A stretch of DNA of 64,000 nucleotides, from contig JANWWS010000040.1 in the NCBI GenBank assembly GCA_025055765.1, positions 1 through 64,000 on the forward strand, given 5' to 3'. Of this stretch, positions 4,346-27,327 are shown one piece after another. The notes beneath the pieces are model-generated. The model saw only the letters and a program-made list of their open reading frames with translations, searched no databases and was not told the DNA's origin. Each line of letters starts with the position of its first letter. The first letter of the stretch is position 1. The translations under genes and the position numbers were made by a program. Source of the stretch: Leptospiraceae bacterium. GTDB lineage: Bacteria > Spirochaetota > Leptospiria > Turneriellales > Turneriellaceae.

Positions 4346-4600
4346 TCAGGGTGTTCTTAAATCCAGGGATAGAGCATGGATTTTACTTTGGAGTTCTTCT
4401 TCAAGACAGGCATAGACGAGTCTATGTCTTTCCAATGGGGAGAGCCCCAAAAAACGGGAGCTTTTCATCATAATGCGAAAGTGGGAAGCTTCGTGTTGGC
4501 CCAGGTGTCCTTTGTGCAGAGCGCTTTCGTTTTCAATAATAAGCTCTGTGGGGGAAAAAGTCTTTTCAAGTTTGGCTTGGATGATCTCCTCGAGCGTCAC
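4346..4600 (-). CDS. bolA: BolA family protein
   Basis: An 84-residue BolA-type protein with the class II-KH-like fold. Visible conserved blocks are HEASHFRI (36-43), the LSPLERHRLVY segment (53-63) and IHALSL (74-79). BolA proteins partner monothiol glutaredoxins in iron-sulfur trafficking and can act as regulators. The conserved histidine in the C-terminal IHALS block is present. The gene stands alone, divergent from the chemoreceptor. No glutaredoxin is in the window, but a suf operon lies near 52 kb. Confidence 0.88.
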   Translation of the reverse strand: MTLEEIIQAKLEKTFSPTELIIENESALHKGHLGQHEASHFRIMMKSSRFLGLSPLERHRLVYACLEEELQSKIHALSLDLRTP

Positions 4601-4715
4601 AGAGCAAGGTTGGCATTTCTTTTATTTTTGTAAAGCAAGAAGAATACCTAAAAAGAGATTTACAGATTATTTTGCCTGCCGATAATAAACGCATTGGCCG
4701 TCCAGAGAGAGTAGT

Positions 4716-6542
4716 ATTCGTCACCATATCTACTTATCTCTTGCCTTATTTTGCGTCCCCCTTCTCTTACTCAGTTTTTTTTACTTAAAAACAAGCCATC
4801 GCCTGCTAGATCAGGATAGACAAGAATTATGGGGGCTCTTGCGAGTTGAAACCATTAGTGAGCTCATCATAGCTTTACAGCGCCGTCGTGGCTTTATTGC
4901 TCCAGCGGCAAAAAAGGCCGAGGCGAGAGTCTATTACGAAGAAAACACACTAAAAGCCCAGAAAGCCCTAAACCATGCCAAAAATCTTTTGGAACGGGAG
5001 ATTTTCCCTACCTGGGCTGAGCTTCTTGGTAGGCTTGAAAAAATTTTGCAAGCACCTCTTAAGCCCGCAAGCCAAGAACTCATGAGCCTTCATACAACCC
5101 TTATAGCTGAGCTTTTTACTCTTCGCGACCAAGTTATGGAAAAAAGTCTTATTGATATGGACCCTGAACCGCAAACTTACTATCTCCTCCAGCTATCGCT
5201 AAACCACGCTCTTAACCTTACCGAAGCCTTGGGTCGCATGCGCTTCCGAGGTAGCGGCATATTAAGTGGCATCCTTGCTCAAGACACAGAATGGGACAAA
5301 GCCCAGGGAGAAAAAAATTTAGACTTAATTCTTATGCAAAAAGCCCTACAAAAAGCCAAAAATTATCTCCTTGACCCAAGAATAAGCGTAATAGAGAAAA
5401 AAGCCCACGCCATAGAGAATTTTCTTTCCCAAGCCATGTCGCTTTTCCAAAGCAAAACCCCAGATCCCGAGCTTTATTTTTCCCAGATCACGGAGGCCAT
5501 CGACAGTGCAGCTAGCATTGTTTCTCTTGGTATTCTTGTAAGCAGAGAGATACTGGAAAGAAGGGTAAAAGCGGCCAAGATATGGTTAGTTCTCTCCCTA
5601 GGGGGTGTGGCCATTATTTCTGTTCTACCTCTTGGCTTATGTTATCGCTATTTAAAAAAGCTTGAGAGAGGTGTTCACTCTCTAGTGCGCTCCACCGCTC
5701 GGCTTGCCGAGGGACATCTTAGCCTCGAACAAAATCAAACTTCGCTTTTGGAAGTGGCCACTATCGTGCGCGCATTAAAAGAGCTTACGCAAAAACTTGG
5801 AGAAGTCTTGGGTAAGGTACAAGAAAACGCCCGAGAACTACTTGCTTTTGCTTCAGAGCTTAAAGCAAGCTCAACCACCTTAAGCCAAAATGCCGCCGAG
5901 CAGGCTGCTCAATTTGAAGAAAACGAGGCCCAACTGCAAAACCTCCTCTCTTTATCTCAGCAAAATGCACAAAAAGCAAGCGAGCTTTCCGAAGCCTCAC
6001 AGAAAATGGAAAGCAAAGCTCAAGAAGCCCAAAAACAAGTAGAGGAGGTTTTGGATTTATTGCGCCAGGCTTTTGAAAAAATGCAGGTCATGGAAGAAAT
6101 TGCGCGCTCCACAAATCTTTTAACTTTAAATGCCACTATTGAAGCCGCCAAGGCCAAAGAGTATGGTCGAGGTTTTGCCGTCGTCGCGGAGGAAGTGGGT
6201 AAGCTCGCTCTCATGAGTCAAAGCGCAGCCCAGGATATCCGCCAAGTTATGCATAGGGTAAAAGAAATCTCGGCCCATGCCCGGCTTGCTCTCGAGGAAA
6301 TGCATACGTCTACCCGACTTTTCTCTCACGAAACCCAAGAGATTTTTGCAACAAGCCAGGAGCAGAAAGAAAATTTAAGCAATATAAGTCAAGGCATAAC
6401 GCAATTGTCAACCACGGTACAGAGCAATGCTTCGCTTTCCGAGGAGCTCTCCGCCATGGCCCAGGAGCTAGAGTTGCGAAGTAAAAGGCTCCATGAGAAT
6501 TTGCTATTCTTCAAGCTCTACATAGACTCAAAATCAAGATAA
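4716..6542 (+). CDS. Methyl-accepting chemotaxis protein, non-canonical start
   Basis: A transmembrane chemoreceptor signalling to CheA/CheW. From ATT 4716 it would be 608 residues: TM1 at about 5-24 ([20 protein letters not shown]), a helical periplasmic sensor resembling NIT-type domains ([12 protein letters not shown] near its start), TM2 around 285-305 ([19 protein letters not shown]), a HAMP-like region, and a cytoplasmic signalling domain whose hairpin tip has [15 protein letters not shown] and [15 protein letters not shown]. The first ordinary start-type codon, TTG 4839, would delete TM1 and leave one membrane helix. Between the in-frame stop at 4686 and TTG 4839 there is no ATG, GTG or TTG; ATT 4716 is preceded by GAGAGAG. 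The 3' end overlaps dcd by 25 bases, tail to tail. Confidence 0.85.
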
Positions 6543-25847: not shown

Positions 25848-26684
25848 ATGAGGAAAACACCTATTTTCTCGTTTTTACACATAGCTTTACTGACATCCCT
25901 TTGGGCCTATCCCCCTGAGTTGGGTTTTGCAGAGATGTTCTTTCAAGAAAACGATTACTACCGAGCAGCCACCGAATTCCAAAGAGCAGCCTATATGACA
26001 GCAAACACGCCTTTTTCTACCCTAGCCCATATACGTGCGGCTGAAAGCTTTTATTTAGGTAATCAGTACACCCTTTGCCTAGAAGAACTCTTGCGAGCAA
26101 AAATAGAGGAAAAATACAAACAACGGGTGCTCTTTTTAAAAACCTTTTGTACCCAAGGTAAGAAAGAATATCACTTAGCCCTGGAGCTAGCTCAAAGTTG
26201 GCCCCATCCCTTTGGCTACCACCAACAAAAGGTATATAGAGCGCTTCTCTTCCCCGATTCTCTCCATACAGAAGGGTGGCTGTGGGAATCTGAAATTCCC
26301 CTTCCTAATGGTCTTGCCCCTCCCTTGGCAGGAAAAGAGTATTTAGCTGCGCTTGAAAATAGAGAGGGCAAAAAAATCCCCATTTTAGGGGCGGTCTTAA
26401 GCTCGCTTATGCCTGGTCTTGGTCAAATTTATTATGGCTCTTGGGGTGATGCCCTTAGTTCATTTCTTGTTGTAGCCAGTCTTGCAAGTTTTGGCTATGT
26501 AGCTCACCGCTACCAAGAAAGGCCCCTTTCTGTGCTTTTTTTTAGCGGTGCTGCTCTTTTCTACGTGAGTAGCGTCTATGGAGCCTATCTTGGTGCTGAA
26601 AGAAAAAATAAAGAGCTTAGCCAAGAATATGAGGAAAGGGTTTTGCAGCTTTCTTTTCGTTACGAAGTGCTTTCACTACCTTGA
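25848..26684 (+). CDS. Exported protein with TPR-like and C-terminal TM domain
   Basis: A 278-residue protein. ATG 25848 opens a signal peptide (FSFLHIALLTSLWAYP); a TTG at 25812 is less likely. The N-terminal half is TPR-like (MFFQENDYYRAATEFQRAAY, SFYLGNQYTLCLEELLRAK). The C-terminal half carries a glycine-proline turn (SSLMPGLGQIYYGSWGDAL) between hydrophobic helices, as in the DUF5683/TM2-like domain found in Bacteroidetes and spirochaete membrane proteins. It converges on infC, overlapping it by 25 bases. Confidence 0.68.
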   Translation: MRKTPIFSFLHIALLTSLWAYPPELGFAEMFFQENDYYRAATEFQRAAYMTANTPFSTLAHIRAAESFYLGNQYTLCLEELLRAKIEEKYKQRVLFLKTFCTQGKKEYHLALELAQSWPHPFGYHQQKVYRALLFPDSLHTEGWLWESEIPLPNGLAPPLAGKEYLAALENREGKKIPILGAVLSSLMPGLGQIYYGSWGDALSSFLVVASLASFGYVAHRYQERPLSVLFFSGAALFYVSSVYGAYLGAERKNKELSQEYEERVLQLSFRYEVLSLP

Positions 26685-27277
26685 GGAGGTTCCACAGAAC
26701 TCGAAGGTGTGCTTTTTTTGGGAGGATTGTTTTTCCCTCTTGGCCTTAAGACCATGCTCATCATACGTCCCTCCATGGAAGGCATCTTTTCAACTATTGC
26801 CACCTGCTCCAAGCGATCTTTGAACTCCATGAGCTTCTCAAGCCCAAGCTCTGTGTGGGCTATTTCCCTACCCTTAAAACGCATGGTGACTTTTACATTA
26901 TCTCCCTCGTTTAAAAATTCCTGAGCCAGCTGCACTTTTCGGTCAAAGTCCCCCGTATCAATTTTGGGACCCATTTTAATTTCCTTTACCTGAATGATTT
27001 TTTGTTTCTTGCGACTTTCCTTGTCTTTTTTTGTTTTTTCAAATTTAAATTTTCCATAATCGATAATCTTGACGACAGGCATATCCGGGGCTTGGGCAAT
27101 TTCAACAAGATCCACACCGGCCTCTCTTGCGCGGCGCAGGGCCTCAGAAAGCGGAACGACCTCGGCCCCCTTTTCACCCACAAGTCTTACTGTCTCTGCT
27201 GTAATTTCCTCGTTAATGCGATGCTCGCGCGTTGTCCTACGTGCTCCGGGGAAAGGTGGTTTGTTTCTAGTCTTCAT
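26660..27277 (-). CDS. infC: Translation initiation factor IF-3
   Basis: A 205-residue IF-3, which binds the 30S subunit and checks start-codon selection. N-terminal domain: REHRINEEITAETVRLVG and LVEIAQAPDMPVVKIIDYGKF; C-terminal domain: KEIKMGPKIDTGDFDRKVQ and VTMRFKGREIAHTELG. I start at ATG 27277; an upstream TTG frame is not homologous. It has a proline/serine-rich tail of about 20 residues. The usual partners rpmI and rplT do not follow: the next gene is convergent and unrelated. metK lies 50 bases upstream on the same strand. Confidence 0.94.
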   Translation of the reverse strand: MKTRNKPPFPGARRTTREHRINEEITAETVRLVGEKGAEVVPLSEALRRAREAGVDLVEIAQAPDMPVVKIIDYGKFKFEKTKKDKESRKKQKIIQVKEIKMGPKIDTGDFDRKVQLAQEFLNEGDNVKVTMRFKGREIAHTELGLEKLMEFKDRLEQVAIVEKMPSMEGRMMSMVLRPRGKNNPPKKSTPSSSVEPPQGSESTS

Positions 27278-27327
27278 ACTAGACAAATGCCTTCTCTTGA
27301 GAAAATTAAAAAAAGACAACCATTTTT

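Follow-up and report, generated by a model that had tools for sequence, protein, structure and literature searches.

In this Leptospiraceae bacterium, we identified a chemoreceptor gene (methyl-accepting chemotaxis protein) whose first transmembrane helix (TM1) is genuine coding sequence, while its reading frame contains no ATG, GTG, or TTG ahead of this helix. The best remaining start is ATT 4716. Tentatively, we favor the explanation that a weak start at this AUU took over after the loss of an ancestral ATG and that the receptor still works at a low level. All positions refer to the window, i.e., the whole stretch of DNA that was analyzed, which corresponds to the initial 64 kb of contig C5; the genome comprises 2.51 Mb in 50 contigs. 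The relevant features are:

4346 to 4600, minus strand: bolA-like gene, divergent (PF01722, E = 1e-25)
4659 to 4686, plus strand: promoter-like site with TTTACA (4659-4664), a spacing of 16 nt, and GATAAT (4681-4686)
4686 to 4688, plus strand: stop codon TAA, directly before the open frame
4689 to 6539, plus strand: open frame of 617 codons by ORF reading, with its stop at 6540-6542
4689 to 4715, plus strand: in-frame codons THWPSRESS, which look like an untranslated leader by the coding model and the lack of homology
4691 to 4693, plus strand: predicted start of transcription, 6-8 nt past the -10 element
4704 to 4711, plus strand: Shine-Dalgarno (SD)-like purine tract AGAGAGAG, 4 nt before ATT, duplex of -4.8 kcal/mol
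4716 to 4718, plus strand: ATT, best candidate start, giving MRHHIYLSL... and coding for the first residue of ungapped homology
4716 to 6542, plus strand: chemoreceptor coding sequence if started at ATT (PF00015, hydropathy)
4728 to 4787, plus strand: TM1, 20 hydrophobic residues, followed by KTSHR at 4788-4802
4839 to 4841, plus strand: TTG, first ordinary start-type codon, located after TM1, with GGGGG 3 nt upstream and a duplex of -7.8 kcal/mol
26660 to 27319, minus strand: infC, with an ATG start

The encoded protein has the layout of a receptor with TM1, a sensor region, TM2 (near 5586-5642), and a signaling domain, the latter identified as MCPsignal (PF00015) with an E-value of 1.1e-25 and 90.9 bits at a cut-off of 34.6. 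The two helices flank the sensor region; counted along the 617-codon frame, hydropathy peaks at residue 14 and at residue 300, and within a 19-residue window TM1 reaches a peak of 2.22 compared to 2.33 for TM2. Pfam assigned no named sensor family to the receptor; NIT was found in only 1 of 8 members, with an E-value of 0.064. Structure prediction of positions 4716-5699 alone gave a mean pLDDT of 45.6. Elsewhere in the window, a bacterial RNase P RNA lies at 1292-1642 on the minus strand, where several mechanical ORFs overlap it.

A family search yielded 13 genomes in 6 genera, with the source genome alone in its genus, which is sampled by one 50-contig assembly and for which no second sequence was found in our searches. 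Among 41 genomes searched, full-length receptor homologs with 27% to 30% identity were present in 5 genomes of the same family. With the N-terminal half as query, 8 of the 13 family genomes including the source genome matched, which added one further genome (G001) and the N-terminus of another homolog (G010). The N-terminal comparison is therefore based on 7 homologs, all from the same taxonomic family. Contig scans for closer relatives, using the protein from the window as well as one homolog, confirmed nothing, and no relatives of the receptor were found in the viral contigs scanned.

From ATT 4716 onward, the frame aligns with the 7 homologs without a gap over the 41 residues that precede TTG 4839. 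Ungapped similarity begins at ATT 4716 itself, where I-R corresponds to I/V-R in 6 of the 7 relatives, and 5 residues (P15, L16, L19, E37, and G40, counted from ATT 4716) are invariant in all 8 sequences, all of them encoded before TTG 4839. The mean ungapped BLOSUM62 score of this stretch is +34.9, compared to -18.1 (standard deviation 10.4) for shuffles that kept its hydrophobic layout, none of which reached the observed value (0 of 20,000); the other two frames over the same stretch score -21 and -19. Furthermore, a phase-specific Markov model trained on the genome favors frame 0 over positions 4716-4838 as a whole (+2.0 bits vs. -8.8 and -26.0 bits). The alignment with a distant Pantoea receptor (26% identity) begins at residue 7, a point 19 codons downstream of the start annotated for that receptor. 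TM1 is thus genuine coding sequence, and frame 0 is correct from 4716 on. Since TM1 is homologous and in frame, the start of a normal receptor must precede it.

The original prediction had described a frame open from 4689 with TM1 at 4728-4787 followed by KTSHR, as well as GAGAGAG at 4705-4711, ATT 4716, and TTG 4839, all of which the sequence bears out. Its argument that the receptor needs TM1 and that TTG 4839 lies past it gains support from the homology of the 41 upstream residues. The same 41 residues speak against translation from TTG 4839, which would produce a receptor without TM1. The GGGGG upstream of this codon does provide a comparatively strong duplex, with 7.9% of random positions being as strong, and TTG starts are common in this genome (112 of 417 genes by a crude choice of the best SD). 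However, the 41 residues with homology, TM1 among them, are encoded upstream of it in the same frame, and a receptor lacking TM1 would have its sensor domain in the wrong place. We therefore consider a start at TTG 4839 very unlikely.

The lack of an ordinary start is rare in this genome. A survey of long non-overlapping frames of 200 codons or more in 798 kb revealed 547 such frames, of which 5 begin with at least 50 start-less codons. Among these 5, the receptor alone scores high in coding potential (0.136 per codon, above the 75th percentile of the 547 frames), the other 4 reaching 0.037 or below. A stricter cut on the coding score (56 frames) excludes the receptor gene, and the 547-frame survey was used here.

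The homologs suggest where the start used to be. An ATG is present upstream of the residue aligned to 4716 in all 7 of them, and in 6 it lies exactly 9 codons before that residue, the exception being L065, for which an ATG 28 codons upstream was taken. The aligned codon itself is internal in the 7 homologs (ATA in 2, ATT in 1, GTG in 3, and GTA in 1). Because relatives carry an internal Ile or Val codon here, ATT 4716 needs no role as a start in order to exist, and it is most simply read as an old internal codon. Moreover, in 5 of the 7 homologs (L002-L006), the ATG is found 7 nt after a box resembling GCCGATAA (6 or 7 of 8 matches), with L004 and L005 carrying 2 tandem ATGs, of which the second has this spacing; the box of L066 is weaker and differently spaced, and none is present in L065. 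This spacing suggests leaderless receptor mRNAs in a sister genus. It does not hold as a general rule, as only 6 of 47 receptor frames share it when a loose box pattern is applied, namely the 5 homologs and a chance-looking internal GTG (L159), the other receptors having longer box gaps or no box. In the window, the position at 7 nt is occupied by ATT 4693, which is out of frame, and the distance from the box to the aligned residue is 4 nt shorter than in the homologs. Leaderless translation begins with a start at the mRNA 5' end, and at the predicted 4691-4693 the window has no in-frame start. We infer that an ancestral leaderless start was probably lost in the source lineage. Two other sites of the source genome, on contig C26 (plus strand, 54190) and contig C37 (minus strand, 142949), have an ATG or GTG 7 and 5 nt after CCGATAAT, respectively, which resembles a leaderless arrangement.

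A transcript for the receptor could begin just downstream of the promoter-like site. A sigma70 scan matched this site at 10 of 12 positions, with 1 site found vs. a shuffle mean of 0.6, so that it is not rarer than chance; when the region 4601-4715 was shuffled, 4.75% of the shuffles reached a 10/12 sigma70 match and 0.3% held the exact GCCGATAA. This exact sigma28-type -10 octamer lies at 4678-4685 and overlaps the sigma70-like site. Within 798 kb of the genome, the octamer is present 26 times, about the frequency expected by chance. A clear sigma28 promoter was rejected, as the -35 element TTTACAGA at a spacing of 11 nt matches the consensus at only 2 of 8 positions (10 of 16 in all) and the octamer is not enriched. 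The upstream regions of 30 flagellin loci contain GCCGA[CT]A-type boxes in some but not all cases, one of them without a recognized start. The Escherichia coli aer transcript begins 6 bp past the sigma28 -10 octamer (PMC2859248), and on both the sigma70 and the sigma28 reading, the mRNA 5' end would lie near 4691-4693. A similar arrangement was seen in the promoter region of another receptor of the genome (L055, G000:C20:124180, minus strand), where CCGATAAT, GGCCGTC, AGGA, and an ATG 33 nt past the octamer follow each other. Both this region and window positions 4679-4702 contain CCGATAAT and then GGCCGTC at 8-9 nt, a two-part pattern that was not seen elsewhere in the DNA compared.

Downstream of this predicted 5' end, positions 4689-4715 appear untranslated according to the coding statistics. 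In frame 0 they score -4.9 bits, a value equaled or undercut by none of 160 presumed N-termini (codons 2-10) compared to 64 of 160 in-frame upstream regions, the controls being genes with a strong SD. In the band from -6 to -3.8 bits, the separation is only two-fold (1.9% of N-termini vs. 3.8% of upstream regions). In addition, the residues encoded by 4689-4715 showed no similarity to the homologous N-terminus in the alignment. These observations led us to reject ACG 4689 as a start: it lies 9 codons ahead of the aligned residue, like the ATG in 6 homologs, but its codons score as non-coding, its residues are unlike the homologous N-terminus, and it is located before or at the predicted 5' end. 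A 5' end near 4691-4693 would exclude ACG 4689 and anything upstream. Read-through from an upstream 70-aa frame (4473-4685) was likewise rejected, given 2 tandem stops and a coding score of -0.33 per codon, and since the bolA-like gene is divergent, the receptor has no preceding gene on its own strand to which its translation could be coupled.

The same region bears on the programmed frameshift that had originally been offered as an alternative, in which translation would begin further upstream and in a different frame. A score of +2.6 bits is obtained for 4689-4715 in another phase, yet 23.8% of upstream regions reach this value in their best phase, and TTG 4672, which lies in that frame, is upstream of the -10 element. 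Positions 4693-4716 contain no run of 3 identical bases and thus no slippery run, 4689-4715 does not resemble the N-terminus of the homologs, and from 4716 on the homologs run collinear with frame 0. These results leave a frameshift extremely improbable.

Two near-cognate codons occur in frame between the predicted 5' end and TM1, namely ATT 4716 and ATC 4728. The SD-like duplex is stronger at ATT 4716 (-4.8 kcal/mol) than at ATC 4728 (-1.7 kcal/mol), making ATT the strongest of the near-cognates tested before TM1, although 26% of random internal positions are equally strong. The anti-SD used for these duplexes was the 16S tail of relatives, as a 16S search of the source genome gave no match. 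The control for SD strength is a crude one, as the median for first-in-frame starts, many of which are not true starts, is -2.7 kcal/mol vs. -2.8 kcal/mol at random positions. The first 14 codons from ATT score -1.6 bits in frame, with -0.9 and -1.9 bits in the other phases, and are thus not clearly coding. An MRHH sequence ahead of TM1 agrees with the positive-inside rule. ATT 4716 is therefore supported as the best remaining start by homology and, more weakly, by the coding statistics and the promoter position. The original proposal of a start at ATT 4716 stands to this extent; the ATG upstream in the relatives, the weak SD, and the predicted hairpin described below speak against its actual use. 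Conservation of AUU as a start was not seen among the 7 homologs, which all belong to other genera; one of them has ATT at the aligned position, and there it is internal.

In the scenario that we infer, an ordinary chemoreceptor with 2 transmembrane helices would have lost, in this lineage, the ancestral ATG 9 codons upstream of 4716. The promoter at 4659-4686 would give an mRNA beginning near 4691-4693, on which ribosomes would start weakly at AUU 4716, 4 nt after AGAGAGAG, and produce MRHH followed by TM1. A leader hairpin (4692-4765) was predicted, in which 4704-4717 pairs with 4726-4741 at -13 kcal/mol (z = -1.85), covering the purine tract and the first 2 bases of AUU; 10 of 200 shuffles fold as well. 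Conceivably, the receptor level might be set by a double brake, i.e., the AUU start together with a hairpin locking the SD-like tract and most of the start codon, an arrangement that would replace the ancestral leaderless AUG start and be possibly sensitive to temperature or IF3. We regard this extension as improbable.

Early decay of the gene, in which the start region was lost by mutation while decay has not yet reached the remainder of the frame, is a strong rival and a real possibility, because the signaling tip is the most divergent of 53 and another receptor is apparently frameshifted. The altered start region itself fits such decay, with the ATG 7 nt after the box kept in 5 of 7 homologs, ATT 4693 out of frame in its place, and the 4-nt shortening. 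Of 33 conserved positions, the tip deviates at 5, compared to a maximum of 4 in the other 52 tips, the positions being those conserved in at least 85% of these 52 and the collecting pattern being one that would miss worse tips. At window positions 6108-6161, it departs from QTNLLALNA.IEAARAGE, the reading of most of the 52 others. In a second receptor of the genome (L064, G000:C37:165763-167650), the TM1-like stretch (165763-165885) and the body (from 165881) lie in different frames, with the shift within a few bases of 165878-165885; this lesion was judged by eye and coding score without homologs. However, the body of the window gene has no disabling lesion, its 617 codons being open and its coding score in the upper quarter noted above. 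Weak initiation at AUU and decay also overlap, as the former could be all the expression that remains.

An error in the assembly or consensus, also raised in the original prediction, would mean that an ordinary start is masked by a wrong base or a small insertion or deletion at roughly 4686-4715. This is plausible insofar as the genus is known from one 50-contig assembly, homology fixes frame 0 only from 4716 on, and the second receptor also has an apparent frame lesion. On the other hand, 4686-4715 is free of runs of 4 or more identical bases, and the listed completeness of 99.41% and contamination of 0.71% argue against many broken genes. We consider such an error unlikely.

AUU starts have been described in E. 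coli infC and pcnB (PMC9410913), and in Staphylococcus aureus cvfC1, non-canonical starts yield about 10% of AUG expression (PMC13009471). What these genes share with the receptor candidate is an AUU shortly preceded by a purine tract, together with the lack of an ordinary start where one would be expected. Their starts are reported with experiments in these papers or in the references therein, and the cvfC1 start is conserved with a strong extended SD (PMC13009471), in contrast to the weak SD of the receptor. The parallel to infC that had been drawn initially does not extend to this family: infC has an ATG upstream of the REHRINE-type motif here and in all 10 untruncated relatives (13 genomes were compared, with one relative locus truncated and one genome without a match). 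The closest parallel is rcsD-Hpt of Yersinia pestis, where an internal AUU is used after a frameshift (PMC10191623). As would be the case for the receptor, an internal Ile codon serves as start there after the normal N-terminal reading was lost; however, this was shown by mutation and concerns a separate short domain (PMC10191623), while the receptor candidate would be near full-length. In Leptospira interrogans, about 440 leaderless mRNAs have been reported, which were less frequent than expected among cell motility genes at 37 °C (PMC5243855). The ATG 7 nt after a -10-like box in the 5 homologs is reminiscent of these, unlike the window, where the matching position has no start and is out of frame, so that a leader of approximately 24 nt would be needed. 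Among the literature titles and abstracts searched, no chemoreceptor with an AUU start was found.

Should translation begin at the AUU, gene callers that accept only ATG, GTG, and TTG would start this gene at TTG 4839 and cut off TM1, and the receptor would represent a natural case of a lineage in which a weak internal start has replaced a leaderless AUG. In the case of decay, the gene would instead provide a snapshot of chemoreceptor loss in a genome that is listed as smaller than those of 10 of 12 family members (by rounded sizes, some from incomplete genomes). Either way, the finding calls for caution in start-codon annotation rather than pointing to a new mechanism.
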